The notes below the pieces were generated by a model. The model did not search any database. It was not told the DNA's origin and saw only the letters and a list, made by a program, of their open reading frames with translations. This document shows positions 1,233 through 25,096 of a DNA stretch of 64,000 bases, in pieces. Source of the DNA: Alteromonas sp. RKMC-009 (GTDB lineage: Bacteria; Pseudomonadota; Gammaproteobacteria; Enterobacterales; Alteromonadaceae); the NCBI RefSeq assembly GCF_003584565.2, contig NZ_CP031010.1, positions 248,001-312,000 on the forward strand, in the 5' to 3' direction. The first letter of the stretch is position 1; the number at the start of each line of letters is the position of its first letter. A program made the position numbers and the translations under genes.

Positions 1233-2843
1233 ATGCCAGTGTCACGCAGAGATTTTCTTTCCTTATCCACCGGAGCGGCCACCGGCCTGAGTTTATTACC
1301 GGGACTGTCTGTGGCATCAGCAAGCCAGCCTGCTTGGCGACGTTCAGCAGAAGGGCATCGTCAGGCTGACCTGGGTGACGGTACTTACCTGAATCCGGTA
1401 CTGGCCGGAGATTATCCTGACCCCACAATCCTGCGGGATGGTGACGATTACTACATGACCCATTCGTCGTTTGATGCTGCGCCGGGCATTTTAATCTGGC
1501 ACTCCAAAGATCTGGTGAACTGGCAACCCGTGGGCCCTGCGCTGGAAGAGCCGTTGGGGATTGTGTTTGCCATGGATTTAGTCAAACACAACGGCCGGTA
1601 CTACATCTATATTCCGTTTATGAAAGCGCCCTGGTCGCCGCCACTGGCAAGTTTTGCCAATATTATGGTGATTCACGCTGACAACATTGAGGGCCCATGG
1701 AGCGAACCTGTTGATCTGCACCTCGGCGGTGTGATTGACCCTGGCCACATCGTGGACGAGAAGGGGCAGCGCTGGCTGTTTACATCAGGCATTAAGCGAA
1801 TTCGACTGGCAGATGATGGTCTGTCGACCATCGGTGAGCTGGAGCAGGTGTATGATGGCTGGCAGTATCCTGATGACTGGATCACCGAAGCCTACGCACT
1901 GGAAGGACCTAAGTTATTCCGTCGCGGGGATTACTTCTATCTTGTGTCTGCAGTGGGTGGTACCGCTGGTCCTGCAACCGGCCATATGGTGATTGTGGCG
2001 CGCTCCAAAACCATCGACGGTCCCTGGGAAAATTGCCCGCATAACCCCATTGTCAGAACCGAAAGTGAGGACGAAAAGTGGTGGTCCCGTGGCCATGCCA
2101 CCATGCTGGAAGGGCCGCAGGGCAAGTGGTACATGGTGTATCACGGTTATGAAAATGGTTTTCGTACGTTGGGACGACAAACCCTGGTTGAGCCTATGGG
2201 CTGGGATGATGATAACTGGCCTGTCGCATTGGGTGGTGATTTATCTCTGCCGCTACCAAAACCAGAAGGCGAGGCGCTACCTCATGGGTTTACTCATTCA
2301 GACAACTTCACATCGTCTTCCCTTGGCACCCGCTGGACCTTCTTTGGCGCCGCTGCCAGTGAGAAGTCGCGGGTAACTTATACGCCTGATGGTTTGAAAC
2401 TGAAAGCCGCCGGTTCGTCCCCAACCGACAGTGCGCCGTTGGTGCAGACCATTGGCGATCAGGCCTATGAAATCAGTGTTATCGTCAATCTGGAAGCGGG
2501 TACCGAAGCGGGCTTATTGCTGTTTTATAACAACCGTTTGTATCTGGGGATGGGACAAAGTGAATCAGGCATGGTGACCTACCGTGGCGGTAAATCCAGC
2601 TACTGGCGGGAGCCGGCACCGCAAACCAGACGGCTTCACATGAAAATACGTAACGACCGTCACATCGTTACCTTCTACTACAGTGAAGACGGAAAAAACT
2701 GGACCCGCCATACCGTGCGCAGTGAGACCTCAGGGTATAACGTGAATACCATTGATGACCTGCAGGGGCTGAAACCGGCATTATTTGCCTGCGGGAAAGG
2801 CAGTGCTACGTTTAGTCAGTTTACTTATCGCGGGCTGAAATAA
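1233..2843 (+). CDS. Glycoside hydrolase family 43 protein, Tat-exported
   Basis: A 536-aa GH43 enzyme (beta-xylosidase / alpha-L-arabinofuranosidase type). I start it at the ATG at 1233, which has GGAG 7 nt upstream and gives a clean twin-arginine signal (SRRDFLSLS) with a hydrophobic segment; an upstream in-frame ATG would bury this signal. The five-bladed propeller begins near residue 55 with DYPDPTIL, whose Asp is the expected general base. An IDPGHI segment supplies the pKa-modulating Asp and an ALEGPKLF segment the general-acid Glu. Residues about 350-536 form a beta-sandwich (ConA-like) domain as in GH43 xylosidases. It is transcribed with GH106 and GH3 downstream. The product is probably folded and exported to the periplasm. 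Exact specificity is not readable. Confidence 0.88.
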   Translation: MPVSRRDFLSLSTGAATGLSLLPGLSVASASQPAWRRSAEGHRQADLGDGTYLNPVLAGDYPDPTILRDGDDYYMTHSSFDAAPGILIWHSKDLVNWQPVGPALEEPLGIVFAMDLVKHNGRYYIYIPFMKAPWSPPLASFANIMVIHADNIEGPWSEPVDLHLGGVIDPGHIVDEKGQRWLFTSGIKRIRLADDGLSTIGELEQVYDGWQYPDDWITEAYALEGPKLFRRGDYFYLVSAVGGTAGPATGHMVIVARSKTIDGPWENCPHNPIVRTESEDEKWWSRGHATMLEGPQGKWYMVYHGYENGFRTLGRQTLVEPMGWDDDNWPVALGGDLSLPLPKPEGEALPHGFTHSDNFTSSSLGTRWTFFGAAASEKSRVTYTPDGLKLKAAGSSPTDSAPLVQTIGDQAYEISVIVNLEAGTEAGLLLFYNNRLYLGMGQSESGMVTYRGGKSSYWREPAPQTRRLHMKIRNDRHIVTFYYSEDGKNWTRHTVRSETSGYNVNTIDDLQGLKPALFACGKGSATFSQFTYRGLK

Positions 2844-2950
2844 GTCCGCGATACTCACTCTCTATACCTGGCCCTGCAACCTATTGAAAATACACAGTCC
2901 AGCTATTGAAGAAATCCATTGTATGAAATGTTAAAAATTTGCTGAAATGC

Positions 2951-2974
2951 AAACTTGAGTAAAGGTTCAAGTTT
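2951..2974. promoter_or_regulatory. Dyad symmetry upstream of the GH106 gene
   Basis: AAACTTGA (2951-2958) and TCAAGTTT (2967-2974) form an 8-bp dyad with an 8-nt spacer in the 184-bp gap between the GH43 stop and the GH106 start. It is a candidate operator. No T-run follows, so a terminator is unlikely. Confidence 0.35.
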
Positions 2975-3027: not shown

Positions 3028-6000
3028 ATGATATTCAACCCGCGCCGCGTTTTCCTGCTGGTTCTCGCTTTCATTTTTAGTACTCCGGTTCTTGCTGAGT
3101 CTTCAGAGTCATTAAGTGACAACTTCCACACGCCTTCATCAACCTACGCCCCCCATGCGTGGTGGCACTGGATGAACGGCGATGTAAATCCCGATGAAGC
3201 CGCTGCCGATTTAGAGTGGCTGCATGCTGCCGGTGTGGGTGGCGTGCAATTGTTCGATGCAGGCATGGGACCGCCACCGGAAACACCGCTTACTTTTGGT
3301 AGTGCAGCCTGGAAAAGTGCCGTTCAGCAAAGTGCTGCCAAAGCGAAATCGCTTGGGTTAGATTTTGTGATCACCACATCCCCGGGCTGGAGCGCCACTG
3401 GCGGCCCGTGGGTAATGCCTCAGGATGCCATGAAAAAATGGGTGTGGTCAGAAACTGAAATAAAAGGCGGTGAGCAAATCACCACGTCATTACCTTTACC
3501 CCCCGCCGTTGCAGGGCCGTTTCAGGATATTCCCGTTGAGGCCATCGGTCACGCATCCCATCATATCGACGATTATTACCGCGATGTCAAAGTACTGGCC
3601 TACCCGGTTAAGGCACATGAGTCTGTTGCTCTTCAGGTTTCAGGAAAGGCATCACTGACAGAGCAGCTGGGTGACGGACGCTTCTGGCCAGCTACGGCTA
3701 TTGATGCTGATGAAAACGGTATCGTGCGCTTGCAATTCGATGCCGGTAAAAATGTGAGCGTGCAGGGCGTGACACTCGGCTTACCCGGCAGCCGCGGTTT
3801 TGGTACGCCTAATCCGCCGGTAGCCACCTGGTTTGCTTGTGAAAGTGAGTCTCAGACAAGCTGTACGCCGCTGGCAGTGCTAGATGCAACACGCTCACTT
3901 ACCCGAACCGCCTCGTTTGAAACTGTTACCGCCCGCTACTTTGCCCTTACACTCACCCGCAGCACTGAACCGGGTTTTATCGATACGCTAAGTTATGCTC
4001 AGGGGGCAAACAAATTGCCTTTCCCTGCCCACGCCAGTGCTTATGCGGTGTCGGAAGTGCAGCTTCATGTTCGCCCGGTGGTAAATGCGTTTGAAGAAAA
4101 AGCCGGATTTGCCGCTGCGTCCCGCTACTACCCGTTAAATGTGCAAAATGCTTCTGAGGCTGCTGTTTCAGCAAATGATGTGCGCGACATTACAAGCTTT
4201 ATGGATGAGAACGGTACCTTAAACTGGCAGGCGCCGGCAGGGCAGTGGCGTATTGTCAGGTTGGGGTACAGCTTAACCGGACACGAAAATGGTCCGGCAC
4301 AGCACAATGCCACCGGCCTTGAAACCGATAAATTTAACGCTGAAGCACTGAGCCGATACCTCGATACGTACCTGCAGTTTTACCGCGATGAAAACGGTGA
4401 ACTGTTCGACGGCATCACCGGCCTGCTCAGTGACAGCATCGAATCGGGTCCGCAGAATGCTGGTACCGAATTGCTTGACGCCTTTGCAGCAGCCACGCCC
4501 TATGATGTAACGCCCTGGTTGCCAGCACTCACCGGTGAAGTGATTAGCAGCGCTGCCGAAACCGACCGATTCTTATGGGATTACCGGCACTTTCTGTCAC
4601 AAACGTTGAATACCGCGCACTACAAAACCATTGCTGCAAGAGCTGAAAAACTCGGGCTCGACTATTACACCGAAGCATTGGAAGACCACCGCCCGCAACT
4701 TGGGAACGACATCGATATGCGTCTGGCGGGCGGGATTCCCATGGCAGCGTTCTGGTACTTTGACCCTGAAAAAAATCCTAAGCCCACCTACATTGCCGAT
4801 GTGAAAGGGGCGGCTTCTGTCGCCACGCTGAAAGGCGAACAGATTGTGGCAGTTGAAGCCATGACTGCCTTCGGTCAGCCCTGGGACATTGGTCCTGCGG
4901 AACTGAAGCGGGCAGCCGACAGAGCACTGGTGTACGGCGGCAACCGGTTTATGTTGCACAGCTCTGTGCATCAGGCGCAAGGTATTGACGGTACACCCGG
5001 CAAGCCGATGATGCCGCTGCTCGGGCATTACTTTAACCGCAACAGTACCTGGGCTGGTATGGCAAAGCCATGGATCACCTATCTCACCCGCGCTCAGTAT
5101 TTGATGCAGCAAGGCGCGCCGGTAAGTACCTTTGCCTATTTTATTGGCGAGGAAGCACCGGTGACGTCTCTATTTGGTGATGAGCAGCCCGGTGATGCGC
5201 CACAACATAGTATTCCTCCGGGCGCCGCCTTCGATTATGTCTCGGCGCAGGCACTGGACTGGCTAACAGTAACGAAAAATAAAACCCTTCAAACCCGGGG
5301 CGGCACGGAATATCAGTTTATCTACCTTGGTGGCGATGCCTCGCTGATGACACTGTCAACCCTGCATAAGCTGCAAGAACTGGCAGAGCAGGGGGTGACG
5401 ATTGTTGGGGAAATGCCCGCTGGCAGTCCGTCCCTTGCCGATGATCAGGCTGTGTTTAAGAAGCAGGCAAACGCCCTTTGGCAAAGGACTAATGTAATCG
5501 CCACAAGCAACATTCAATCTGCCATGGATGCGCTGAGCGTGCCGCCACAATGGCAGTTCGACAATTCGCAAAATGATTTGCTGGTGAGGCAACGCCGCAC
5601 AGATGACGGCGACATTTACTTCATTGTGAATACCGCTGATATGCCAGTGGAGAACCTTTTTACTCCGTCCCGTAACGGCAACTTCGCATACCGGTTTGAT
5701 GCAGTAAACGGAAAGGTTACTGAGCTTGAACAGTCGGGTAGAAGCGTGTCGCTGTCACTACCTGCATTTGGCTCTGTGTTTATTTTTATTACCAATAAAC
5801 CGCTGAAAAAAGCAGCACCGGCGCAGCAACCGAGCCTGCAGAAACACGAAGTTCAAACTGCCTGGTCGTTAACCTTCGATAGCGCTGACGGGCCGCTTGA
5901 GGAAGTGAATCTGAATGCGCTCACCCCGCTCAATGAACTGGGAAATACAACTCTGCAAGGGTTCAGTGGTATCAGTCACTACGAGACCGGATTTACTGTG

Positions 6001-6306
6001 CCTAAAAGTTGTACCACTCCGATTGGCATAGCGGTGGGGGACGCAGGGAATATTGCCAGATTCACACTTAACGGCCACGACATCGGCACACTGTTTACAC
6101 CGCCCTGGCAGGTGATTGCACCCGAAGCATTTAAACGGGGGATGAACACCCTTCGCATTGATGTGGCTAACTACTGGGCCAACCAGCTTATCTGGCAGGC
6201 AAAAAACAACCCGGTGAAAAGCGGATTCCCGTCGGGCGTGTACTCACCGGATGCCAGTTACCGGATGGCCGGACTCCGCGGGCCTTTTTCAGTTTTATGC
6301 CAATAA
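3028..6306 (+). CDS. Glycoside hydrolase family 106, probable alpha-L-rhamnosidase
   Basis: A 1092-aa secreted protein with a Sec signal peptide (hydrophobic core FLLVLAFIFSTPVLA). The N-terminal catalytic region has GH106 hallmarks: WWHWMNGDV, a GGVQLFDAGMG strand and a TSPGWSATGGPWV loop. Length and the C-terminal beta-sandwich region (residues about 930-1090, ending in a galactose-binding-like FxVPK...GxxxxxxLNG pattern) match the family. GH106 enzymes remove terminal alpha-L-rhamnose from plant or algal glycans and from flavonoid rhamnosides. The gene starts at an ATG with GGAGAG upstream and is 15 nt from the GH3 gene, so the two are probably co-transcribed. A rhamnosidase plus beta-glucosidase is the pair needed to strip rutinose or neohesperidose from a polyphenol (inference). 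Confidence 0.87.
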   Translation: MIFNPRRVFLLVLAFIFSTPVLAESSESLSDNFHTPSSTYAPHAWWHWMNGDVNPDEAAADLEWLHAAGVGGVQLFDAGMGPPPETPLTFGSAAWKSAVQQSAAKAKSLGLDFVITTSPGWSATGGPWVMPQDAMKKWVWSETEIKGGEQITTSLPLPPAVAGPFQDIPVEAIGHASHHIDDYYRDVKVLAYPVKAHESVALQVSGKASLTEQLGDGRFWPATAIDADENGIVRLQFDAGKNVSVQGVTLGLPGSRGFGTPNPPVATWFACESESQTSCTPLAVLDATRSLTRTASFETVTARYFALTLTRSTEPGFIDTLSYAQGANKLPFPAHASAYAVSEVQLHVRPVVNAFEEKAGFAAASRYYPLNVQNASEAAVSANDVRDITSFMDENGTLNWQAPAGQWRIVRLGYSLTGHENGPAQHNATGLETDKFNAEALSRYLDTYLQFYRDENGELFDGITGLLSDSIESGPQNAGTELLDAFAAATPYDVTPWLPALTGEVISSAAETDRFLWDYRHFLSQTLNTAHYKTIAARAEKLGLDYYTEALEDHRPQLGNDIDMRLAGGIPMAAFWYFDPEKNPKPTYIADVKGAASVATLKGEQIVAVEAMTAFGQPWDIGPAELKRAADRALVYGGNRFMLHSSVHQAQGIDGTPGKPMMPLLGHYFNRNSTWAGMAKPWITYLTRAQYLMQQGAPVSTFAYFIGEEAPVTSLFGDEQPGDAPQHSIPPGAAFDYVSAQALDWLTVTKNKTLQTRGGTEYQFIYLGGDASLMTLSTLHKLQELAEQGVTIVGEMPAGSPSLADDQAVFKKQANALWQRTNVIATSNIQSAMDALSVPPQWQFDNSQNDLLVRQRRTDDGDIYFIVNTADMPVENLFTPSRNGNFAYRFDAVNGKVTELEQSGRSVSLSLPAFGSVFIFITNKPLKKAAPAQQPSLQKHEVQTAWSLTFDSADGPLEEVNLNALTPLNELGNTTLQGFSGISHYETGFTVPKSCTTPIGIAVGDAGNIARFTLNGHDIGTLFTPPWQVIAPEAFKRGMNTLRIDVANYWANQLIWQAKNNPVKSGFPSGVYSPDASYRMAGLRGPFSVLCQ

Positions 6307-6321
6307 CCTCACAGGATGAAC

Positions 6322-8616
6322 ATGAATAAAAACGTTACCAGACGTACCTTTCTGAAAGGTTCTATCGCCACTGCCGTAATCGCCGCCGTCTCCGGCTGTG
6401 CCAGCCAGGTAAAAGGCAAACAGGACACACACCTGACCGGCCTCATTGCCCGTATGACACTGGAAGAAAAAGCCGGACAACTGCATATGGACGGTGTGTT
6501 GTCTCCCCGTATGGTGCAGCCGAATTTCCAGAAGATTAATCCGTTCACGCCTAACTTCTCACCGGAGCAGGCGGCAGACTTACTGAAGAATCAGCAGGCG
6601 CAAATCAAAAGCGGCATGATGGGCATGATGACGTCGCCGGAAGACATCGATTCGGTTATTTACGCACAAACCGCAGCGGTAAAAGACACCCGCCTTAAAA
6701 TTCCGTTAATTTTCGGTGCCGATATTATTCATGGCCACCATACTATTTTCCCGGTACCGCTGGCGGAAGCGGCCAGTTTTGAACCGGAACTGGCAGAACG
6801 CACAGCACGGGCCTGCGCCGTTGAAGCAACGACCAATCTGGGTATTGATGTGACCTACGCGCCCATGGTGGACATTGCCCGTGATCAGCGCTGGGGCCGT
6901 GTGGTGGAAGGTGCCGGTGAAGATGTGCTGTTAGGCAGTTTATTCGCAGCGGCGAGAGTCAAAGGATTCCAGGGGAGCGGCCCTGCCGACTCACGGGGAT
7001 TACTGGCGTGTCCTAAACACTTCCTTGCATACGGAGCGGCGGAATCCGGGTTGGATTATCAGGGCACGTCAGTGTCTGACCGGGTGCTGCACGAAGTGTA
7101 TTTGCCGCCTTTCAAAGCTGCCTTTGAGGCGGGTGCCATTTTTACCATGGCGTCTTTCAATACTATTGACGGCGTGCCAGCTACCGGTAATAAGGCCATT
7201 CTAACCGACTTACTGCGTGATGAGATGCACTTCAGCGGCGTGGTCATTTCCGACTTCCAGAGTGAACTGGAACTGATTAAGCATGGCTATGCCAAAGACG
7301 AAAAAGCAGCGGCAAAACTGGCGCTGTCAGCAGGTTGTGACATTGGTATGGTCAGCGGCATCTTCCCTAAATATGTGCCTGAACTGGTGCGCAGCGGCGA
7401 GCTCGACGAGGCCATTGTGGATAAAGCCGTGTACCGCATTCTGCATGTGAAACAGCAGGCCGGATTGTTTGACGACCCGTTCCACCGCATCGACGAAATA
7501 GCGGCACCGCAGCAGGCCCCGGAAGAACATATTGCACTGGCGCGGGAAGCTGCAACCAAGTCGGTTGTGTTACTGAAAAACACCGGCAGTGTGCTGCCGC
7601 TGAGTAAAGAACAAAAAGTTGCGTTGATTGGCCCCTTCGCGAAGGATCTTAAAAACATCGACGGTTCCTGGTCGCCTTTTGCACCGCAAAAAGCGTCTGT
7701 ATCCCTTGAAGCCGGATTTGCAGAGAAAATACCTGCTGCGCAACTCCTTACTGAAGACGGGTGCGGTATCGACACCGCCATTGAAGGTGGCATAAAGCGA
7801 GCTGTAGAGGCTGCTAAACAGTGTGACGTGGTGGTGCTGGCAATTGGTGAGGCCACTAACATGTCTGGTGAGGCGTCATCGCGGGCAGAAATCACTCTGC
7901 CGGCAGCACAACAGGCGTTAGCTGAAGCACTGGCCGCTACCGGCAAACCGCTGGTGGTATTACTGCGAAATGGTCGTGCCATGGCGCTGGAAGGGGCAGT
8001 GCGAGAGGCATCAGCCATTCTGGTCACCTGGTTCCTGGGCACAGAAAGCGGCCATGCTATAGCTGATGTGGTGTTTGGCGATCAGTCGCCTTCAGGTCGT
8101 CTGCCGGTAACTTTCCCCATCGCCAGCGGGCAACAGCCGTATTATTATGCAAGGGAAAGCTCCGGTCGTCCGCCGGCACCGGGTACAACCCATATGTTCC
8201 AGTCTCATTTCATTGGTATTCCCGATGATGCGCTGTACCCCTTCGGACATGGTCTGACGTATTCGGAAATCACCTACAGCGGTGTGACACTGGATAAAAG
8301 TGAAGTGAAAAAGGGTGAGGCGGTCACGGCATCGGTTACGGTGACGAATACCGGTAAGCGGGCAGCCACAGAAGTTGTGCAGTGCTATATTCAGGACCGG
8401 TTTGCCTCAGTTGTGCAACCGGTACAGAAGCTCATCGACTTCGACAAAATTACCCTGGCTGCCGGGGAAAGCCGGTCAATTTCTTTTACCATCAAGCCGC
8501 AACAGATGACTTTTATTGCCCGCGATTTATCGCAACAACTGGAGAGTGGTGAATTCAGAGTGTGGATTGCGCCATCGGCAAGAGCCGGTGAAGCGGAGAG
8601 TTTTACACTAAGCTGA
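6322..8616 (+). CDS. Glycoside hydrolase family 3 beta-glucosidase (BglX-like), Tat lipoprotein
   Basis: A 764-aa GH3 enzyme. Of two ATGs 6 nt apart, the second (6322) is preferred because AGG at 6313-6315 is then properly spaced. The N-terminus is a twin-arginine signal (TRRTFLKGS) ending in a lipobox-like AVSGC, which suggests a Tat-exported lipoprotein. The GH3 N domain ends with GVVISDFQSE, whose Asp (codon 7252-7254, residue 311) is the expected nucleophile. A GH3 C domain follows (residues about 400-620, NGRAMALEG), then a fibronectin-III-like domain (about 650-745, EVVQCYIQD). It probably cleaves beta-glucosides or short oligosaccharides released by the GH43/GH106 partners. Exact specificity is unknown. 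Confidence 0.92.
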   Translation: MNKNVTRRTFLKGSIATAVIAAVSGCASQVKGKQDTHLTGLIARMTLEEKAGQLHMDGVLSPRMVQPNFQKINPFTPNFSPEQAADLLKNQQAQIKSGMMGMMTSPEDIDSVIYAQTAAVKDTRLKIPLIFGADIIHGHHTIFPVPLAEAASFEPELAERTARACAVEATTNLGIDVTYAPMVDIARDQRWGRVVEGAGEDVLLGSLFAAARVKGFQGSGPADSRGLLACPKHFLAYGAAESGLDYQGTSVSDRVLHEVYLPPFKAAFEAGAIFTMASFNTIDGVPATGNKAILTDLLRDEMHFSGVVISDFQSELELIKHGYAKDEKAAAKLALSAGCDIGMVSGIFPKYVPELVRSGELDEAIVDKAVYRILHVKQQAGLFDDPFHRIDEIAAPQQAPEEHIALAREAATKSVVLLKNTGSVLPLSKEQKVALIGPFAKDLKNIDGSWSPFAPQKASVSLEAGFAEKIPAAQLLTEDGCGIDTAIEGGIKRAVEAAKQCDVVVLAIGEATNMSGEASSRAEITLPAAQQALAEALAATGKPLVVLLRNGRAMALEGAVREASAILVTWFLGTESGHAIADVVFGDQSPSGRLPVTFPIASGQQPYYYARESSGRPPAPGTTHMFQSHFIGIPDDALYPFGHGLTYSEITYSGVTLDKSEVKKGEAVTASVTVTNTGKRAATEVVQCYIQDRFASVVQPVQKLIDFDKITLAAGESRSISFTIKPQQMTFIARDLSQQLESGEFRVWIAPSARAGEAESFTLS

Positions 8617-8737: not shown

Positions 8738-9709
8738 TTACTCTTTAAACGCAGCCGCTTTCTCAAGTACATCAATGGTAACGTCACCCGTAGCAGCCCA
8801 CTCTGTACCACGCAGGATGAGTGACTTCACACCGTCGTAGGCAATGGTGTCAGGGCCATGGCCCAGAGCAATACAGAATACCCGGCCTTTTTCGTAATCA
8901 ACTGTCCACACTTGTGGATTTTCCGCATCCATGCCCTGCATATTGTTCAGCTTTTCATCCGTGTACAAATGCGGTGGATATTTCGGGCCCGCATACTTTT
9001 GCTGATAGTTGGCAGCATCATCGTAAGCGGTGGCCAGAACATGCACTTTGGCATCAGGATGCCAGTACATGTTGGTGTACATATCATCCATGAAGGTCCA
9101 GAAATACTCGCGCATGCCTTTGGTGACAGGGTGATCACGGTCGGTCACATGTACGCGGAAGGCATCTGGCGGAGAGCGCCGGCTGCCGTGAAACGGGCGC
9201 ATGGTGCCGCCGGCAAGCTTTTCGTACTCAGGCCAGGAGGGCGAGCCGATATTAAATGAACTGTGGTAGATCACCAGGCCGCCCCCCTGCGCTACATAGT
9301 CGAACAGCGCTTTTTGAGCCGTTTCGCTCCAGCGATTTTCATTTTCATCGGTGTAATTCCATTTGCCCAGGTAGTTCAGAAATACCACGTCATACTTTTT
9401 CAGCATGGGCAGTGTGGCAACGGAGAAGTCTTCAATAACCCGCACATCCAGTTTGCCCGAGTCCAGCATCATGGTGCGGAGCCTGGCGTTAACACCGGTC
9501 CAGTCGTGCTCATAAGAGTTTTCACCGGCAACGATCAATACCTTGCTGCGTTCAGCGTCGGGGACTATTGGCACCGAAATTTTCTGAACGGTTTCAGGCG
9601 GACGGTAATCCGGTACCGGTATAACAGTGCTTTCGGCTTCTGCTGCCAATGCAGACTGCATCAGCGGCAGCAATAAACTTGCTGCGCATAGTAGATTTCT
9701 AATTTTCAT
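8738..9709 (-). CDS. ThuA-domain protein (trehalose-utilisation ThuA-like), exported
   Basis: A 323-aa protein with a Sec signal peptide (LLCAASLLLPLMQSALA). The rest is a ThuA-like glutamine-amidotransferase-fold domain: KVLIVAGENSYEHDW at the first strand, YDVVFLNYLG, a GGGLVIYHSSFN nucleophile-elbow-like segment, GTMRPFHGS and a C-terminal VFCIALGHG segment. In characterised relatives ThuA proteins sit in pathways through 3-keto sugars, but the biochemistry of most members is unsettled. The gene is co-directional with the TonB receptor upstream (16-nt gap), so uptake and processing are probably coupled. With the GMC oxidoreductase at the left edge it hints at oxidised-sugar chemistry (inference). 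Confidence 0.85.
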   Translation of the reverse strand: MKIRNLLCAASLLLPLMQSALAAEAESTVIPVPDYRPPETVQKISVPIVPDAERSKVLIVAGENSYEHDWTGVNARLRTMMLDSGKLDVRVIEDFSVATLPMLKKYDVVFLNYLGKWNYTDENENRWSETAQKALFDYVAQGGGLVIYHSSFNIGSPSWPEYEKLAGGTMRPFHGSRRSPPDAFRVHVTDRDHPVTKGMREYFWTFMDDMYTNMYWHPDAKVHVLATAYDDAANYQQKYAGPKYPPHLYTDEKLNNMQGMDAENPQVWTVDYEKGRVFCIALGHGPDTIAYDGVKSLILRGTEWAATGDVTIDVLEKAAAFKE

Positions 9710-12020: not shown

Positions 12021-12208
12021 TGAATCCTCATTCTATTTCTAAATCAGTCAGTGAAAGCATTTTTGTCTGCCTGATTGTTAAATGGAATTTGAATTCTATT
12101 TAAAGGGTTGAAATTATCTGTTTATAAATTTGTTAATCGGGTTATGATTTTGTAAATCAATGTTGGTGATTTATTCTGCAACTTCTGTTTTTAGCTCCTG
12201 CTGGCAAA

Positions 12209-13504: not shown

Positions 13505-13525
13505 GTGAGGTGAATATCACCTCAC
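13505..13525. terminator. Hairpin between convergent SMR and LysR genes
   Basis: Perfect 9-bp stem GTGAGGTGA (13505-13513) with TCACCTCAC (13517-13525) and a 3-nt loop. It starts 6 nt after one stop and ends 5 nt before the other, so it is well placed as a shared transcription end. It lacks a T-run. Confidence 0.55.
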
Positions 13526-13529
13526 GACA

Positions 13530-14441: not shown

Positions 14442-14472
14442 AACGCCCTCGTTGCCTGTTTAGGTATCTATG

Positions 14473-14504
14473 AAATTGATGTAAACCATCTATACATTCA
14501 ATTT
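14473..14504. promoter_or_regulatory. Candidate LysR-type operator in the divergent promoter
   Basis: AAATTGA (14473-14479) and TCAATTT (14498-14504) form a dyad in the AT-rich 159-bp region between the LysR gene and the catabolic operon. LTTR sites are usually interrupted dyads in such positions. Assignment by position only. Confidence 0.4.
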
Positions 14505-14600
14505 TTTGTTTGGTCAGCGCCCATTTAACATTGTTTCTCCATTAATTTAAATATTTTTAACAATAAAAAATCGAATTTTTGTTCGGTTTGTGGAGCGGCG

Positions 14601-15578: not shown

Positions 15579-15579
15579 T

Positions 15580-16380: not shown

Positions 16381-16391
16381 GAGGAGTTATC

Positions 16392-17558: not shown

Positions 17559-17562
17559 AATC

Positions 17563-18492
17563 ATGAATATTATCGGACCGGATTTATTGATTTTTGGTGT
17601 TGATGATGTGGAAGCCTGTAAACAGTTTGCGCTGGATTACGGTTTAACGCAGGCATCTGAACACCGCTTCGTTGCCCTTGATGGCACGGGTATTGAGATT
17701 TACAGCAAAGACGACAGCAGTTTGCCTGCGCCGCTGGAAACGGGTTCAAGTATCCGCAAAACAATTTACGGTGTCGCAGACACCGCAACCGTGGATGCCA
17801 TTTACGACGAACTGTCGAAAGACCGTGAAGTAAAACGTCTGGATGACGGCAGTATTGAAGCTGTGGATGACATGGGTTTTGTACTGGGCTTTCAGGTCAC
17901 TATGCGCAAACCGCTGGATATGCCGGCAGAGAAGATTAATGCACCGGGTGCACCTGCGCAGCGTCCGGCCAATGAAATTGGCGTATCGAAAGACTTTACG
18001 CCGGAGCCGCGCACTCTGTCTCACGTGGTGTACTTCGTGCCGGATTACAAAAAAGCGGAAGCGTTTTACGCCGAACGTCTGGGCTTTATTACCACCGACC
18101 GCTTTAGTCATGTGGGTCCTTTCATGCGTCCTGCAGGGACTACCGATCACCATACGCTGTTCTTCCTGAACACGCCGCCGCACATGAAAGGTATTGAGCA
18201 CTTTACCTTCCACATGTCTGGCCCGACTGCGGTGGTGCAGGCCGGTAACCGCATGGTGGAAAAAGGTTACCAGAGCTTCTGGGGACCGGGTCGTCACATC
18301 TTCGGTTCCAACTGGTTCTGGTACTTCAAGAGCCCGTTTGGCTGCAACATGGAATTCGATGCAGACATGGATCTTCATGATGACAACTGGGACGCACGCG
18401 AAGCCTTGCCGGGTGCGGATAACTCACAGGTGTTCCTGCTGCAGTACCGCGAAAAGTGGGCACCAATGGGCCCGCCGCCACCGAAAGGCTGA
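17563..18492 (+). CDS. Two-domain VOC protein, type I extradiol ring-cleavage dioxygenase
   Basis: A 309-aa vicinal-oxygen-chelate protein with an N-terminal domain (1-115) and a catalytic C-terminal domain (about 150-290). The metal triad is visible as His154 (LSHVVYF), His213 (GIEHFTFH) and Glu264 (CNMEFDAD), with the spacing usual for BphC/XylE-type Fe(II) enzymes. I start at ATG 17563, 4 nt after the previous stop and preceded by AAGGA. It should cleave a catecholic or trihydroxyaromatic ring. With the flavin monooxygenase two genes on, hydroxylation followed by meta-cleavage is the simplest reading. Confidence 0.9.
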   Translation: MNIIGPDLLIFGVDDVEACKQFALDYGLTQASEHRFVALDGTGIEIYSKDDSSLPAPLETGSSIRKTIYGVADTATVDAIYDELSKDREVKRLDDGSIEAVDDMGFVLGFQVTMRKPLDMPAEKINAPGAPAQRPANEIGVSKDFTPEPRTLSHVVYFVPDYKKAEAFYAERLGFITTDRFSHVGPFMRPAGTTDHHTLFFLNTPPHMKGIEHFTFHMSGPTAVVQAGNRMVEKGYQSFWGPGRHIFGSNWFWYFKSPFGCNMEFDADMDLHDDNWDAREALPGADNSQVFLLQYREKWAPMGPPPPKG

Positions 18493-18497
18493 TTGTC

Positions 18498-18860
18498 ATG
18501 AACCAAGGTGTTCTGCTCTGTAAGTTGGATGATTTACCCGACAATAGTTCCCGGGGTTTTTTGCCTGATGCCCAGGGTCAGGACACCGTTTTTATTGTGC
18601 GCCGTGGCAGCAAGCTGTATGGCTACAGCGATATTTGTCCGCACTATGGCGATACCGCCTTACCCTGGAAAAAAGATGTTTATCTGGATGCCGGTGGTGA
18701 CTATATCGTTTGTGCGGCGCATGGCGCGTTATTTACACCCGACACCGGAGAGTGTGTGAAAGGTCCGTGCAGGGGCGACTTCTTAACGCCCCTGAACATC
18801 ACGGTAACCGCTGAACAGGATGTCGTTTTACTCTGTGAATCACGAGGAAAAGAACAATGA
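18498..18860 (+). CDS. Rieske [2Fe-2S] ferredoxin
   Basis: A 120-aa single-domain Rieske protein. Cluster ligands are in Cys47-Pro-His49 (ICPHYGD) and Cys72-x2-His75 (CAAHGALF), the standard CxH...CxxH pattern, here with a longer insertion between the two motifs. I begin at ATG 18498, 5 nt after the dioxygenase stop; a longer in-frame start would overlap that gene. It overlaps the monooxygenase gene by 4 nt (ATGA). It probably donates electrons to the operon's oxygenase or keeps the Fe(II) of the extradiol enzyme reduced. It is not a large Rieske oxygenase subunit. Confidence 0.92.
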   Translation: MNQGVLLCKLDDLPDNSSRGFLPDAQGQDTVFIVRRGSKLYGYSDICPHYGDTALPWKKDVYLDAGGDYIVCAAHGALFTPDTGECVKGPCRGDFLTPLNITVTAEQDVVLLCESRGKEQ

Positions 18861-19987
18861 GCGCATGCGTAAATAAAGTATTGATTATTGGTGGTGGCTT
18901 CTCAGGTATGTCTGCCGCTATCGAAATGAGTAAGCGCGGTATACAGGTTGATCTCGTTGAGATTGATAAGAACTGGCGTACCGACGGTGCCGGGATCAGC
19001 ATTGGCGGCGCCACCATAAGAGCACTGCGTCAAATCGGTGTGCTGGATGAATTTAAAGCGCAGGGTGCAACCCACGCCGGTTTAGATGTGCACGCGCCTG
19101 ACGGAACCCATCTGGCGCATATTCCAGCGCCGCCGGTGGTAGGAAATGAAGCACCCTGTGAAGGTGCCATCATGCGCCCGGTACTGGCAAAAATTCTGGC
19201 CGCCAAAACCCGCGAATACGACGTGAATGTACGCTTAGGCATTACCTTTGAGAACATTAACGACAAAGGCGATAGCGTAGAAGTGACCTTTACCGACGGT
19301 ACCAGTGGCGAATACGAGCTGGTGGTCGGTTCAGACGGCCTGATGTCATCGGTCAGAACTACATTGTTCCCTGATGCACCCAAGCCATCTTACATCGGCC
19401 AGGGCGTATGGCGTGCAATTTTGCCCCGCATTCCTGAAATTGAAAACATTCACATGTGGATGGGTAAGAACGTGAAAGTGGGTGTGAACCCCATGTCGAA
19501 AGACGAAATGTACATGTTCATAACCGAAAACCGGGCTGACAACGAGTTTATTGAACCGGCTACTTTCAAAGAGCGCTTTATTGCGTTGCTGGAGTCTTTC
19601 CCCGCCCCGGTTGTGCAGCAAATGAAAGGCATGTTGCACGAGAAGTCGATGATTCACTATCGTCCGCTGGAAAGCATGTTGATGCGTGCGCCCTGGTATT
19701 CAAACCGCGTAGTATTAATTGGTGATACCGTGCATGCGACTACGCCACATTTGGCATCCGGTGCTTGTATCGGACTTGAAGATGCCATTGTTTTGGCAGA
19801 AGAACTGGATGACAAAGCGACATTGTCTCAGGCATTAAGCGCATTCCAGACCCGCCGGTGGGAGCGTTGTCGCCTTGTGGTCGAAAACTCAGGTCGCCTT
19901 GCTGAAATCGAAATTGAGGGCGGTGACAAAATGGAACACGCCGGCATCATGCGTGATTCTGCTATTGCGATGGCGCAGCCGCTTTAA
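18857..19987 (+). CDS. FAD-dependent monooxygenase (PHBH fold)
   Basis: A 376-aa flavoprotein hydroxylase. The N-terminal Rossmann motif is VLIIGGGFSGMSAA and a later dinucleotide-binding segment is LVVGSDGLMSSVR (the DG motif of PHBH-fold enzymes). The GD motif VLIGDTVHATTPHLASGA binds the FAD ribityl chain. Such enzymes insert one O atom into an electron-rich aromatic ring using NAD(P)H. It is the last gene of the catabolic operon. In the naringenin (fde) operon of Herbaspirillum an enzyme of this class hydroxylates the flavanone A-ring before extradiol cleavage, so the set here is comparable (established analogy, not proof). Confidence 0.92.
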   Translation: MSACVNKVLIIGGGFSGMSAAIEMSKRGIQVDLVEIDKNWRTDGAGISIGGATIRALRQIGVLDEFKAQGATHAGLDVHAPDGTHLAHIPAPPVVGNEAPCEGAIMRPVLAKILAAKTREYDVNVRLGITFENINDKGDSVEVTFTDGTSGEYELVVGSDGLMSSVRTTLFPDAPKPSYIGQGVWRAILPRIPEIENIHMWMGKNVKVGVNPMSKDEMYMFITENRADNEFIEPATFKERFIALLESFPAPVVQQMKGMLHEKSMIHYRPLESMLMRAPWYSNRVVLIGDTVHATTPHLASGACIGLEDAIVLAEELDDKATLSQALSAFQTRRWERCRLVVENSGRLAEIEIEGGDKMEHAGIMRDSAIAMAQPL

Positions 19988-20001
19988 TCACTATTCAGCG
20001 A

Positions 20002-20034
20002 TAAAAAAAGGTGCGCTTTGTATCAGCGCACCTT
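20002..20034. terminator. Intrinsic terminator for the minus-strand TonB receptor
   Basis: Stem AAGGTGCGCT (20008-20017) with AGCGCACCTT (20025-20034). On the minus strand it is followed by a T-run (the A7 at 20003-20009), so it is a classic terminator for the gene ending at 20061. It may also stop the plus-strand operon. Confidence 0.85.
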
Positions 20035-20060
20035 AGTCATTATGGGTAAAAATTCGCTTT

Positions 20061-22541
20061 TCAGAACTCGTAACTTACATTCGCGAATACCATTCTTGGT
20101 CTGGCGTAGGCAGCTTCAGCGTAGCCACTGCCTGAACCTAAAGATGAGTTACCAGACACGCGGTAAATCTCATCGGTAGCATTGTTAACACCCAGTGCCA
20201 CCTTCCAGTCCATATCCGGCGACTCGATAACGACCGAAATATCAACCAGCGTATAGGCATCGTTTTGCGCAATGGCTTCAGTGTTTGCCGCATCAAAATA
20301 TACCGGGTCGCTGTAGGAAATATCAATGCGGGGCTGAATACCGTAGCCGTCAATTTCGCCGTAGTAACCAATACCGATATTCCCTTGTAATTCAGGCGCA
20401 AAAGGTAACTGATTGCCTTCTGCGGGCCCTGCGCTTACCGGGCGGCCGGGCACTTCAATTTGAACTGCTTCATCAATAGACGTATCGAGGTAACCCAAAC
20501 CGCCTTCGATAATCCAGTTATCGTGAGGGATCCAGGTGAACTCCAGTTCGGCACCATCAATGGAAGCCTTACCTGCATTGAACAGCCATGGCGCAATGAA
20601 TACCCGGTAACTGAATTGCAGGTTGGAATAGTCAGAGCTGAAAACCGCACCGTTTAAGCGGAATTCGCTGGTAATGTCAGACTTAAAGCCCAATTCATAG
20701 GTTTTCACTTCTTCCTGGTCGAACAGGTGGCCGGCGTCCAGGTCAGACTGCTCAAGGGCGAAGTTAAAGGTTGAATTCCAGCCGCCGCCTTTAAAGCCTT
20801 CGGAATAGCTGGTGTACACCATGGTGTCTTTGGTTACCGTATAGCTTAGGTTCGCCGCAACCGTGGTGGCCGAGAAGTCATGTTCATACAGCTTCTTTTC
20901 CAGGTATTTGGTGTCCGGGTCGGCGTAATCGAACTGATCAGGAATCGAGCCTTTGGTTTCTGAGGTATAACGAATACCGAACGTACCGGCCAGCTTGTCG
21001 GTGAAGTCGTAAGTGGCCTGAGCGAAATAAGCCATGGCTTCGTTATCGGTGATATTGTTGTCGCTGTCGAGGTGGCAACGGTTTGTGCCCTCTCCGCAGG
21101 TAAAGCCGTCACCCCGGTCGCCTACCTGCACTGTCAAAATGTCCGTCACTTTTTCAGTGTAGTAAAACGCCCCGACAATGGCCGACAGGTCGTCACCGGT
21201 GTAAGTCAGTTGCAGTTCCTGACTGAACTGGTCGCCTGAGGAATCAAAATCGGTATGCAGAATAGTAAATGGCGTGTTGTCAGCATCCCGTTTACCGGTC
21301 CAGGCAAGGTCGCGGTATGCCGTCACAGACTTAAGCTGCAAGTCACTGTTGATGGCATATTCAAGGTGCAGAGATGTGCCCCAGTTTTTCAGCTCACTGC
21401 CAACTTCTGCAGTGCCATTGCTGGTAAACGGGCCGCTGTTCCACTGATTGTTCGCACAGGCCGAATCGGTATTCTCACCCACATAACCACGGGGGCCGCC
21501 GCCAACTGTCACCAGACCTGAAACGTCTAGCGCCGAACCTTCCGCTGTCGTGACCGGACGTCCGGGAGGACCGGGCAGTGCAACCCAGGCGTCACTGCAA
21601 CCTGCCGCTACACTCTGGTTTGCTGCAAACCAGCCTGCATTGGCCGCCGTGCCGGTTTCATTCACGTCGTTGTTGTTGTTATAACCGGCAAATACCAGCG
21701 GAGAACCGTTTTCATCCGCTTCGGTGTAGTCAAAATTTAGCTTGGCGGTAAAGTTACCGGCGGGTTCGTATAAGAATTTAGCCGTTGCAGTGGTGTTATT
21801 AGTGTCACCTAAATCCAGACCATCGTAGGCGCGGGTAACATAACCATCCTGCTTTTTCGTACCAAGGGTGAAGCGGCTGAACAAGTCATCTGTTAAAGGA
21901 ATATCCACTGCACCGGAGAGTTCCATTAAGCTGTCACTGCCAATGCCGGCTTTGACTTTGCCCCCAAATTCATCGCCGGGTTGCTGCGTATTGATGATAA
22001 CCGCGCCACCAATGGTGTTGCGACCAAACAGCGTGCCTTGCGGGCCGCGCAGTACCTGTACACTTTCGATATCCCGCATTTCCATGGTGCCGCCGACTGA
22101 TTGCCCCATGTACACATCGTCAATATATAACCCGACGCCCGGGTCAGTATTGGCCCTTGAGCTGATTTGTCCGACGCCACGAATAAACACAACCGAAGAA
22201 TTATTGTTACCTGCTAAAGGCGCATTATTAGTAAATTGCAGGTTAGGGGTAATTTTGCCGATGTCGTCAGTACCGGAAATCTGGCGGCGTTCCAGAGCAT
22301 CGCCGTTGAATGATGTCACTGAAATAGGCACTTCCTGCAAGTTCTCAGTCACTTTACGGGCGGTTACCTCTATGGTTTCCAGTTTATATTTGCCCTGACT
22401 TTGTGTGTCGTCAGTTTGTGCCGACGCACCGGGGCTTGTCAGTCCGCCATGCAAAGCAATCGTCACGGCCACAGCCAGACCTTTGCGGGAAAATAATGCC
22501 GCCCCCGGAGAGCGCGCTTTCTTCGTTTGGGTAGGATTCAT
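20061..22541 (-). CDS. TonB-dependent receptor
   Basis: An 826-aa receptor. A long N-terminal region precedes a TonB-box-like LETIEVTAR, then the plug with ENLQEVPISVT and SVQVLRGPQGTLFGRN, and a barrel ending VSYEF. The class is the sphingomonad/alteromonad nutrient-uptake type often found beside aromatic-compound operons. It is convergent with the catabolic operon and ends beside a shared terminator. It diverges from a second TonB receptor across 257 bp. The most likely cargo is the aromatic substrate of the operon or its glycoside (inference). Confidence 0.93.
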   Translation of the reverse strand: MNPTQTKKARSPGAALFSRKGLAVAVTIALHGGLTSPGASAQTDDTQSQGKYKLETIEVTARKVTENLQEVPISVTSFNGDALERRQISGTDDIGKITPNLQFTNNAPLAGNNNSSVVFIRGVGQISSRANTDPGVGLYIDDVYMGQSVGGTMEMRDIESVQVLRGPQGTLFGRNTIGGAVIINTQQPGDEFGGKVKAGIGSDSLMELSGAVDIPLTDDLFSRFTLGTKKQDGYVTRAYDGLDLGDTNNTTATAKFLYEPAGNFTAKLNFDYTEADENGSPLVFAGYNNNNDVNETGTAANAGWFAANQSVAAGCSDAWVALPGPPGRPVTTAEGSALDVSGLVTVGGGPRGYVGENTDSACANNQWNSGPFTSNGTAEVGSELKNWGTSLHLEYAINSDLQLKSVTAYRDLAWTGKRDADNTPFTILHTDFDSSGDQFSQELQLTYTGDDLSAIVGAFYYTEKVTDILTVQVGDRGDGFTCGEGTNRCHLDSDNNITDNEAMAYFAQATYDFTDKLAGTFGIRYTSETKGSIPDQFDYADPDTKYLEKKLYEHDFSATTVAANLSYTVTKDTMVYTSYSEGFKGGGWNSTFNFALEQSDLDAGHLFDQEEVKTYELGFKSDITSEFRLNGAVFSSDYSNLQFSYRVFIAPWLFNAGKASIDGAELEFTWIPHDNWIIEGGLGYLDTSIDEAVQIEVPGRPVSAGPAEGNQLPFAPELQGNIGIGYYGEIDGYGIQPRIDISYSDPVYFDAANTEAIAQNDAYTLVDISVVIESPDMDWKVALGVNNATDEIYRVSGNSSLGSGSGYAEAAYARPRMVFANVSYEF

Positions 22542-22798
22542 GGTTACACCTGCTCATGGTTTTATGTATTGTTGTTTTTATCTGGTTAAGCAGCAGAAAC
22601 TGCGATCTCCAGACTTGTATAAAATGTTAAAACCGTTAACTGGGTGTAACAATTAGCCGGGATGAAACAGTTTGTTCGCCAATCAGAAACAATTGAGGAT
22701 GTATAGGATAAATCTATACTGCTCACTAAATAATCTATTTTTAGTAATGTGAATTTGCTGTTAATTTTTCGTTTAAATTAAAAGACGAAGAGAAACAC

Positions 22799-25096
22799 AT
22801 GGAAAACAGCACATTCACTCTCACCAAACTTGCCTGTATGACCGCGATGGCACTGTCATCTGCTACGCCTTATGCTTTTGCACAGGAGGAACAGTCCGAA
22901 GAGAAACAACACGCTATCGAAAAAATCATGGTGACAGCGCAGAAGCGCTCTGAGTCACTGCAGGACGTTCCGGTCGCGATGACCGTTACCACGGCTGAAC
23001 AACTGGAACGGGATCAGATTTACAGCATCACCGATTTGCAGCGTACTACACCTGCTCTGGAAGTAAGTCAGTCTTTCGGCGGCGAGTCTAACGGCGGTGG
23101 CCGTATGCGGGGTATTGGTACAAACGTATTTAACGAAACGGCAGCAGCTTCGGTAGCTATCGTGGTTGACCAGGTACCACAGGGTAACGTGGTTTCACCA
23201 CAACTGTTCGACCTGGCGCAAGTCGAAGTATTAAGAGGGCCGCAGGGTACTCTGTTCGGTCAGACCGCTTCTGCCGGTGTGATTCAGGTCACGACAAAAG
23301 CACCGGATTACACGGAAGTGTCCGGTGAAATTGGTGCTGACTACGCCTGGGATGATGTGGACCGTACGATTATCCGCGGTGCGCTGAATGTGCCGGTAAC
23401 AGACTATTCTGCACTACGCTTTTCCGGCCGGGTAACCAAAGAAAAAGGGCTGCAGCGTAATATCGTGCTTGACCAGGACAACGTGACAGAAGAACAGAGC
23501 TACCGTATCCGTTACCGCAATGAAGCGCGGGAAGATTTGATGGTGGATCTTATCGGCGAATACAATCTGCAGGATTTTGATGGTGTGAATTTCTTTGCAC
23601 CGGCCATTGCCCCCACCTTTGCTCCGTCCATTGGGAACTACACCGCGTGTGGTTTAACTGACATTCAACCTGACGCGCGGGAGTACTGTGCAGAGAAAAT
23701 GTCACAGGAAAAACGGGAAACCATGAGTCTGTCAGCTATCGTAAACTGGCATATTCCCGATCATACGCTGACCTCTGTAACGGCTTACAAAGAAAAGAAT
23801 ATCGAAACAGTACATCGCAATTATACCAGCCGCGTGGGCGCGCCCACTGCTGTGCGTGAAAACCTGGAATCTACCGGCGAGCAGATTTCTCAGGAGCTGC
23901 GGTTAAGTTCTGATACCGACAGTGATTTTCAATATATCGCCGGTGTGTTCTTCTCCCGTTATGCTTACGATACCGGCGCACTGAATGATCCTGAATACGG
24001 TAACCCGCTGAATCTGACCGGCTTCAGCGTGTGCGCAACCTCTATCGATGCTGTACCTCCGGTACCGTTTTTACAAGCCGCGTTTGCTGCTAACGGTTAC
24101 TGGTGCCCGGTCGGTGCTGCAGCCGTTATGGAAGATATCGATGTGTCCTCACAGGCCATTTTTGCTGACGTGACATACGATGTGAATACCGATGTGACGT
24201 TATTCGGTGGTCTGCGTTTTACCCGTCAGAAGAGTGAGTTCCGTAGCGGGCTGGACGGAGAATTTAATAATAGCGGTGATACTACGGATAACGAAGTATC
24301 CGGCCGCGCTGGTGTGCGCTGGCGGATCAGCGACGACAACATGATTTATTCTTCCATTTCACGAGGCTTTAAAGGTTCACTGGTGGAAATCAGTGCTAAC
24401 CCCGGTGTCGCGCCAAATATTTTGAAACCGGAAATTGCCACCTCTTTTGAGATTGGTAACAAAATGACCCTGCTTGATGGCGACATTGCCATTGATACCA
24501 ACCTGTTCTTTACCAAAATCGATAACTTCCAGTCTCAGCGCACCATTTATGTTGATGCTGAGCTGACTGCGGTATCCACCAATGTTGAAGAAGTGGAATC
24601 TAAAGGATTTGAGATTGATGTGTTCGGTCAGCTTACCGACAGCATCTCACTGAACGCCGGCTACATTTATGCCGAAGCGGAGTACCCGGACGGTTACCTT
24701 GGCGATGACGGTACAGACCTTACCGGTGAGCAGCTAATCTTTGCGCCTAAGCACAAGTTCACCCTGTCCGGTGAGTATTTCAAAGCGCTGGGTGAAAACA
24801 TGGAAGCCTTCGTGAATGCCAATGCGACCTACAAAAGCAAAGTCATACTCCGTGCTTCTTCCGATCCGCTATTCGCTTATGACGGCTATTGGAATATCGG
24901 CGCAAGTTTAGGTGTGCGCGACATCGACGGACAGTGGCGCGCTTCATTGTTCGCCCGCAATCTGACAGATGAAGCTGCACCAGCCGCCTACCTTGCCGGC
25001 GACTACGCGGGTACTGCAGATGGTGGCGTAAGAGCGTTGCCGGTTGCAGGTATTACCACGCGATTGATTGGTGTGTCTTTTGACTATAAGTTCTGA
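22799..25096 (+). CDS. TonB-dependent receptor
   Basis: A 765-aa receptor with a signal peptide (MALSSATPYAFAQ), the TonB-box-like KIMVTAQK, the plug motif QVEVLRGPQGTLFGQT and a barrel ending DYKF. It belongs to the same nutrient class as its divergent neighbour but is clearly a different sequence. The start is preceded by GAAGAG. A strong terminator follows. It may serve either the ring-cleavage operon to the left or the tannin/gallate cassette to the right. Confidence 0.93.
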   Translation: MENSTFTLTKLACMTAMALSSATPYAFAQEEQSEEKQHAIEKIMVTAQKRSESLQDVPVAMTVTTAEQLERDQIYSITDLQRTTPALEVSQSFGGESNGGGRMRGIGTNVFNETAAASVAIVVDQVPQGNVVSPQLFDLAQVEVLRGPQGTLFGQTASAGVIQVTTKAPDYTEVSGEIGADYAWDDVDRTIIRGALNVPVTDYSALRFSGRVTKEKGLQRNIVLDQDNVTEEQSYRIRYRNEAREDLMVDLIGEYNLQDFDGVNFFAPAIAPTFAPSIGNYTACGLTDIQPDAREYCAEKMSQEKRETMSLSAIVNWHIPDHTLTSVTAYKEKNIETVHRNYTSRVGAPTAVRENLESTGEQISQELRLSSDTDSDFQYIAGVFFSRYAYDTGALNDPEYGNPLNLTGFSVCATSIDAVPPVPFLQAAFAANGYWCPVGAAAVMEDIDVSSQAIFADVTYDVNTDVTLFGGLRFTRQKSEFRSGLDGEFNNSGDTTDNEVSGRAGVRWRISDDNMIYSSISRGFKGSLVEISANPGVAPNILKPEIATSFEIGNKMTLLDGDIAIDTNLFFTKIDNFQSQRTIYVDAELTAVSTNVEEVESKGFEIDVFGQLTDSISLNAGYIYAEAEYPDGYLGDDGTDLTGEQLIFAPKHKFTLSGEYFKALGENMEAFVNANATYKSKVILRASSDPLFAYDGYWNIGASLGVRDIDGQWRASLFARNLTDEAAPAAYLAGDYAGTADGGVRALPVAGITTRLIGVSFDYKF

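Follow-up and report, generated by a model that had tools for sequence, protein, structure and literature searches.

A stretch of 64,000 nucleotides from Alteromonas sp. RKMC-009 (contig NZ_CP031010.1, positions 248,001 to 312,000; hereafter the window, numbered from its first letter) holds an aromatic ring-cleavage operon at 14601-19987 which, from its homology and gene order, is a module of the fde type known from Herbaspirillum. Around this marine module lie glycosidase, TonB receptor, tannase and gallate genes, and we propose that they form a composite island which probably serves to break down flavonoid-like polyphenols carrying O- and C-linked sugars, B-ring or galloyl groups passing to 4,5-cleavage. 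What was observed is gene content, homology, conserved linkage and genome co-occurrence, from which we infer every reaction, substrate, location and order of steps. An earlier note on this DNA had suggested a polyphenol-glycoside catabolic island; its observation is confirmed and its interpretation, right in direction, is partly supported. To it are added a gallate cluster, a C-glycoside deglycosidase and the coupling to protocatechuate 4,5-cleavage.

The ring-cleavage operon is of the fde type

Pfam scans of the open reading frames (ORFs) of the window identified every enzyme previously named there, that is GH106, GH3, FAH hydrolase, cyclase, alpha/beta hydrolase, VOC dioxygenase, Rieske protein and FAD monooxygenase (FMO). 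The operon and its regulator are listed below, with identities to the proteins of Herbaspirillum GW103 obtained by alignment or tblastn.

13530-14441, minus strand: LysR regulator, divergent from the operon (Pfam)
14442-14600, no strand: LysR-FAH spacer with an ATC-N9-GAT element (spacer alignment)
14601-15578, plus strand: FAH hydrolase (FdeI position), 50%
15580-16380, plus strand: cyclase (FdeG position), 62%
16392-17558, plus strand: alpha/beta hydrolase (FdeB position), 80%
17563-18492, plus strand: VOC extradiol dioxygenase, FdeC type, 66%
18498-18860, plus strand: Rieske protein, FdeD type, 53%, CxH...CxxH present
18857-19987, plus strand: FMO, FdeE type, 58%

The likeness to the Herbaspirillum operon pointed out earlier is borne out: six enzymes are 50-80% identical to those of the fde-ordered GW103 operon, the FMO falls in the same clade, and the hydrolase-VOC-Rieske-FMO order and the divergent LysR (36% identical to that of GW103) are shared. 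The hydrolase GxSxG and flavin GxGxxG motifs are present, and the nearest solved relative of the alpha/beta hydrolase is 2,6-dihydroxypseudooxynicotine C-C hydrolase. The two Herbaspirillum loci compared, of strains GW103 and AP02 and not SmR1, read LysR, outer-membrane protein (the first operon protein, Phenol_MetA_deg), hydrolase, VOC, Rieske, FMO, MFS, cyclase, cupin, FAH and epimerase. The window differs in placing FAH and the cyclase, which we take to be FdeG, at the head of the operon, and in having TonB receptor, glycosidase and gallate genes alongside; between 14601 and 19987 there is no FdeA-type (Phenol_MetA_deg) outer-membrane protein, MFS, cupin or epimerase, all of which are present in the Herbaspirillum locus L111. 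Published accounts give FdeA as a phenol-degradation-type protein, FdeC as the dioxygenase, FdeD as the Rieske protein and FdeE as the monooxygenase (PMC8552027, PMC11069340, PMC11303751); the GW103 and AP02 order fits these roles, the remaining Fde letters being assigned by gene order.

An isoflavone degradation cluster, ifc, has been described from soil bacteria including Variovorax, and it shares with the window the dioxygenase family and the type of alpha/beta hydrolase, with identities of 36% for FdeE-IfcA and 66% for FdeC-IfcB (PMC11069340). A Bradyrhizobium monooxygenase/dioxygenase pair gives 35% and 62% against GW103, values resembling the published ones, and so is consistent with an ifc-like copy. 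Taking it as a stand-in for the Variovorax proteins, the window FMO is only 30% identical to it, which lowers an isoflavone reading.

The nearest named relative of the dioxygenase is that of Alteromonas sp. I4 (79%), and among plasmid records (best 40 of 236) 14 match at 60-69%, from Paraburkholderia, Burkholderia, Diaphorobacter, Azospirillum, Pseudomonas, Bradyrhizobium and others, followed by matches at 48-60% and down to about 33%, the last including enzymes named metapyrocatechase. Six plasmid regions carry overlapping sets of hydrolase, VOC, Rieske, FMO, cyclase and FAH genes; those of Bradyrhizobium and Roseomonas are without several module genes and that of Pseudomonas is without Rieske and FMO. 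A scan of named genomes by FMO alignment (best 80 of 286 relatives; flanks of at most 10 kb, some loci ending at contig ends) found hydrolase, VOC, Rieske and FMO together in 74 of the 80 loci, with cyclase and FAH as well in 52. Across Alteromonadaceae loci the gene set recurs beyond chance: by ORF clustering, FMO, VOC, hydrolase and a LysR are each present in 20 of 20 loci, and Rieske, cyclase and FAH each in 19 (18 and 17, respectively, once two near-identical locus pairs are merged). The Rieske gene of G195, missed by clustering, was detected by tblastn, and the locus without cyclase and FAH, in G018, is a divergent copy.

Phylogeny places the window copy among these relatives. The FMO tree, a quick search of 56 rows, drew on the six plasmid loci (one without FMO), 25 of the 80 named loci, the Alteromonadaceae loci and the window. 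The window FMO lies inside a 19-row Alteromonadaceae clade (SH-aLRT 94) nested in a 48-row clade with the Herbaspirillum fde-ordered copies (SH-aLRT 87), and not with the isoflavone-like copy; some of the rows are long-branched. The VOC tree (57 rows) separates most marine type-1 rows, the window's kind, from a 38-row clade (support 99) containing all the others, the marine copy G048c among them. A separate type-2 group of four FMO rows (support 100) includes a second copy from the window's own genome.

That second, type-2 fde-like module lies outside the window at G000:C1:200716-207357 (L023 10716-17357) and comprises FAH, LysR, FMO, Rieske, VOC and hydrolase genes. It is 44-45% (FMO), 55-56% (VOC) and 47% (hydrolase) identical to the window copy, and related modules occur in G048, G056 and G073. 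A third aromatic cluster, at G000:C1:316623-322519 (L026 4623-10519), encodes an amidohydrolase, FAD monooxygenase, VOC dioxygenase, FAH hydrolase and alpha/beta hydrolase; its gene set also adjoins GH106 genes in G056 (L164) and G318 (L168).

The regulator had been assigned to the NodD-type branch of LysR proteins, for which there is indirect backing. Fifteen type-1 loci, five further ones being left out, were aligned over the LysR-FAH spacer, and ATC-N9-GAT, presumably a nod-box-type element, occurs in 10 of them. Nine of these share one alignment position, at which the five loci without the element carry T instead of C. Among 500 mononucleotide shuffles the mean was 0.9 and the maximum 4. 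Upstream stretches of other LysR genes, mostly betaproteobacterial, contain it in 20 of 52 cases, and in none of the three from Herbaspirillum. The best curated models for the window LysR are BsrA and LeuO, both far below cut-off. The element is no more than suggestive of a candidate NodD-like regulator.

Glycosidase and putative C-glycoside deglycosidase genes lie near the module

To the left of the operon lie the following genes.

1-253, plus strand: 3' end of a GMC oxidoreductase gene (G000:C1:246565-248253), 71-72% identical to the GMC in both G048 glycoside clusters
322-969, minus strand: TetR regulator (PF00440)
1134-2843, plus strand: GH43 with GH43_C2 domain, 65% identical to the GH43 of the Sphingobium RAC03 C-glycoside cluster
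3028-6306, plus strand: GH106 alpha-L-rhamnosidase (PF17132, 728 bits, cut-off 29)
6316-8616, plus strand: GH3, beta-glucosidase-like (Pfam)
8738-9709, minus strand: ThuA-family protein, 66-69% identical to G048 copies adjoining GMC and C-glycoside deglycosidase
9726-12020, minus strand: TonB receptor 1, with relatives of about 56% adjoining the module in G042, G048a and G048b
12209-13096, minus strand: LysR regulator, kept in G009 (Pfam)
13173-13499: SMR transporter between the glycosidase and ring-cleavage blocks (sequence search)

The glycosidase operon is GH43-GH106-GH3, and position 1233, the start given in the earlier note, lies near the probable start codon of GH43, its first gene; ThuA runs with TonB receptor 1. 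From the GH3 end to the FAH start is 5985 bases, in keeping with the distance of less than 6 kb given earlier. The window GH106 is closest among solved entries to 6q2f (629 bits, aligned over residues 27-1089, a likeness judged from sequence alone), which we take to be the flavonoid-active Novosphingobium RHA-P enzyme; 5mqm scores 243 bits. Its nearest plasmid relatives are 35-41% identical among the matches listed. The top-ranked, from Sphingobium RAC03 of an algal phycosphere (41%), sits in a cluster reading TonB receptor-TIM barrel-DUF6379-MFS-GMC-GH43-Gfo-isomerase-GH1-GH106, of which the DUF6379 protein matches PF19906, the C-glycoside deglycosidase beta subunit. Two further GH106 relatives were less informative: one record is without annotation and the other has GH3 and GH43, with no deglycosidase in the stretch shown.

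A 457-residue ORF left of the window, at G000:C1:240675-242048, fuses the beta and alpha domains of a C-glycoside deglycosidase (beta and alpha profile matches 4e-13 and 3e-39; PF19906 itself was run on the G048 and RAC03 proteins). It is 44-47% identical over 93-94% to its three best plasmid matches, from Arthrobacter, Novosphingobium PP1Y and Croceicoccus; in the Croceicoccus record the TIM barrel and DUF6379 are annotated as two genes. After it come a TonB receptor, an MFS transporter, a gluconate_2-dh3 subunit and the GMC gene whose last 253 bases open the window. The literature describes oxidation followed by C-C cleavage for CarA/CarBC and PurA/PurBC (PMC12724307), and beta-elimination of 3-keto O- and C-glucosides with an oxidoreductase that has a TAT-signal partner (PMC10628242). 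With the CarABC, PurABC and DgpABC systems of these two papers the RKMC-009 genes share a TIM barrel, a PF19906-type beta domain and a nearby FAD oxidoreductase; they differ in that alpha and beta are fused in one ORF, in the link to ring cleavage and, from CarA, in a GMC that resembles glucose/fructose dehydrogenases with a gluconate_2-dh3 subunit.

The fused deglycosidase immediately follows the fde-type FMO, on the same strand, in G042 (with a gap of about 70 bases) and in G048a. G048c has it roughly 6 kb off, and in G048b no more than a fragment matches. A second deglycosidase pair and a GMC lie a few kb from the type-2 module of the window's genome. The glycoside genes of G048 are contiguous: GH43 (73%), GH106 (54%), GH3 (75%), symporter (71%) and four TIM barrels (57-74%). 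Within about 18 kb in that genome come a deglycosidase pair, ThuA (69%), a gluconate_2-dh3 subunit, a GMC (72%) and a type-2 fde-like module, and a second, partly degraded glycoside gene set is found about 13 kb from a type-1 copy.

A gallate cluster belongs to the shared core

The genes to the right of the operon are these.

20061-22541, minus strand: TonB receptor 2, 99% in G009
22799-25096, plus strand: TonB receptor 3
25154-27046, minus strand: tannase / feruloyl esterase family (PF07519, 432 bits)
27075-28331, minus strand: gallate dioxygenase, fused LigB-LigA type (NF009904, 712 bits, equivalog cut-off 412)
28335-29639, minus strand: aromatic-acid-type MFS transporter (TIGR00895, 356 bits, below the cut-off of 419)
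29734-30666, plus strand: LysR of the gallate cluster, divergent (sequence search)
31077-32426, plus strand: glycoside (GPH) symporter (TIGR00792, 297 bits, cut-off 231)
32428-35936, plus strand: four xylose-isomerase-like TIM-barrel genes, the same set adjoining GH43-GH106-GH3 in G048

With TonB receptor 1, receptors 2 and 3 make up the three that the earlier note had placed beside the enzymes. The nearest relative of the window, G009, is collinear at 12203-22698 (95%) and 25468-30675 (89%). Its locus has no match left of 12203, over the TonB receptor 3 stretch, or at 30675-37793 (symporter, four TIM barrels, sulfatase-like remnant), where it has about 20 bases instead. This collinearity makes the fde module, TonB receptor 2, tannase and gallate genes the shared core, with the glycoside genes flanking it; the gallate cluster at 25154-30666 (tannase, gallate dioxygenase, transporter, LysR) is kept with the module in G009. 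As in known pairings of gallate dioxygenase and tannase, the NF009904 match adjoins a tannase-family gene; the difference is that here the cluster stands together with an fde-type module. The idea that tannase accompanies the module throughout the family was rejected: a close homologue was found only in G009 among 395 genomes, five of which match. The G009 tannase match (G009:C29:285492-287339) is interrupted by a single stop codon in frame and may therefore be an inactive copy.

The four TIM-barrel proteins were considered as C-glycoside deglycosidases, which was not supported: two resemble hydroxypyruvate isomerase and one, weakly, IolE, all below cut-off, and the third has no NCBIfam match and no match in the solved-structure comparison, which covered the first three. 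One of them, at 34029-35009, has a weak PF01261 match and named relatives that are mostly sphingomonad.

The module travels with protocatechuate 4,5-cleavage and GH106 genes

The VOC gene is present in 13 of 59 genomes of the genus and 14 of 395 of the family (5 of 52 genera), with four copies in G048 and two in the window's genome, a patchy distribution that suggests an accessory trait. The genus and family samples overlap, and the same 395 family genomes were apparently drawn in each search. A LigB-type protocatechuate 4,5-dioxygenase, found in 19 family genomes overall, occurs in 14/14 fde-positive and 5/381 fde-negative ones (p 6e-22), and within the genus in 13/13 and 5/46 (p 2e-9). The LigB neighbours in G040 include LigA, a class III dioxygenase beta subunit, 4-oxalomesaconate tautomerase and LigK, each over cut-off, and G046, G411 and G412 have much of this set too. 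In the window's genome LigAB lies at 351.7-352.9 kb; LigC-like and LigI-like genes, at 339.5-341.4 kb, are about 4 kb away from a second GH106, and a gene for 4-hydroxybenzoate hydroxylase is located at 1850 kb.

A GH106 scoring 640 bits or more is found in 6/14 fde-positive and 0/381 fde-negative family genomes (p 6e-10), or 6/14 and 2/381 (p 2e-8) when the weaker hits of two fde-negative genomes are included; in the genus the counts are 6/13 and 1/46, the latter being G045 (p 2e-4). The GH10 control occurs in 6/13 fde-positive and 18/46 fde-negative genomes of the genus (p 0.44).

A proposed route and its alternatives

According to the route that we favour, TonB receptors would import flavonoid-like glycosides and galloyl esters into the periplasm, where GH106, GH43 and GH3 may take off rhamnose, pentose and glucose. 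Removal of sugars in the periplasm is favoured by protein starts which, read by eye, are twin-arginine-like on GH43, GH3 and the gluconate_2-dh3 subunit and Sec-like on GH106. Hydrolysis-resistant sugars would be oxidised by the GMC/gluconate_2-dh3 oxidoreductase and then eliminated by the fused deglycosidase, which shows no obvious signal, so that this elimination may be cytoplasmic. In the cytoplasm the FMO and Rieske protein are predicted to hydroxylate the A-ring, at C8 in the FdeED precedent (PMC8552027, PMC11303751). The VOC dioxygenase would open the ring and the alpha/beta hydrolase, cyclase and FAH hydrolase would degrade the product; the B-ring, released as a hydroxybenzoate, could enter the protocatechuate 4,5-cleavage encoded elsewhere in the genome, and galloyl groups could pass to tannase and then to gallate dioxygenase. 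The deglycosidase-FMO order in G042 and G048a may reflect, by the FdeE precedent, that a C8-glycosyl group must leave before C8 can be hydroxylated. We put forward more tentatively, at slightly less than an even chance, that in some marine Alteromonadaceae (G042, G048a) one operon serves both to break the C-C bond that holds the sugar in C-glycosyl flavonoids and to open the A-ring thus released, and that in the window's genome the same parts, over about 30 kb and with rhamnosidase and gallate genes, would allow complete use of C- and O-glycosylated polyphenols in the sea.

Several observations weigh against the proposed island. The G009 locus lacks the GH block, TonB receptor 3 and the TIM-barrel block, and GH106-fde as a conserved neighbourhood was looked for in this nearest relative and not found, a distant GH106 (36%) lying elsewhere in its genome. 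There is no GH106 in the 80 named loci within their flanks, and DUF1302/DUF1329/MMPL transport genes occur in 37-40 of them, about half, so that in those genomes the module may act on different substrates. Glucose and fructose dehydrogenases are the closest matches of the GMC (glucose dehydrogenase at 111 bits), its similarity to C-glycoside oxidases being only weak (46 and 37 bits to 7qf8 and 7dve). No deglycosidase was found near most other type-1 loci, within flanks that differ in length, and the deglycosidase-FMO linkage may have a single origin, since G042, G048a and G048b share one FMO clade. The co-occurrence p values ignore phylogeny.

The alternative that survives best, still an unlikely one, is that the same chemistry acts on a diphenyl polyphenol that is not a flavonoid, for instance a xanthone, a chalcone, a stilbene or the aglycone of another aryl C-glycoside. 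The FMO is 42% diverged from that of Herbaspirillum, and the several related modules per genome in G048 and the window's genome suggest substrate diversification; against this, the FMO clade holds the Herbaspirillum fde-ordered copies, and FdeE acted only on flavonoids among the substrates tested (PMC11303751).

Less probable again is a juxtaposition of two unrelated modules, the operon degrading aromatics and the GH43-GH106-GH3 and symporter/TIM-barrel blocks, having arrived separately, acting on a rhamnose-containing algal or plant polysaccharide. In its favour are the absence of these blocks from the otherwise collinear G009 locus, a GH43 that resembles xylosidases and arabinofuranosidases, and GH106 being unlinked to the module in the 80 named loci. 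Yet strong GH106 tracks the module across genomes while the GH10 control does not, the cluster of the RAC03 relative of GH106 includes both a C-glycoside deglycosidase pair and the GH43 that shares 65% identity with the window's, and in G048 these glycoside genes are likewise found next to fde-like modules. The island suggested earlier is supported in so far as its GH106 is nearest to 6q2f and all six genomes with strong GH106, among the 395 searched, are fde-positive; its glycosidase block is not kept at the G009 locus, and its joint action and substrate are inferred.

Degradation of phlorotannins or phloroglucinol from brown algae, mentioned earlier as another substrate class, is very improbable: the host is marine and the flavonoid A-ring and phloroglucinol share a hydroxylation pattern, but phlorotannins consist of phloroglucinol units only, without sugars, and so would need neither the protocatechuate 4,5-dioxygenase found in every fde-positive genome nor a rhamnosidase, tannase or the C-glycoside deglycosidase present at some loci.

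Under the polyphenol-glycoside proposal the island looks related to a pathway known from bacteria that live in soil or with plants. Searches of open-licence papers on marine, Alteromonas or macroalgal polyphenol degradation, judged by titles and the beginnings of abstracts, gave no report of this module. With a marine module tied to deglycosidase, rhamnosidase, tannase/gallate and protocatechuate 4,5-cleavage genes, it becomes possible to test what happens in the sea to polyphenols from plants, seagrasses and mangroves, and the genes offer markers.

Other features of the window

The sulfatase-like matches at 36185-37775 fall on separate short ORFs and seem to come from a gene that is broken or truncated. 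Further to the right, a cobalamin-independent methionine synthase domain protein adjoins MesX (55326-57404), and an ArsP_2-type exporter is found with nickel superoxide dismutase at 59903-62782.

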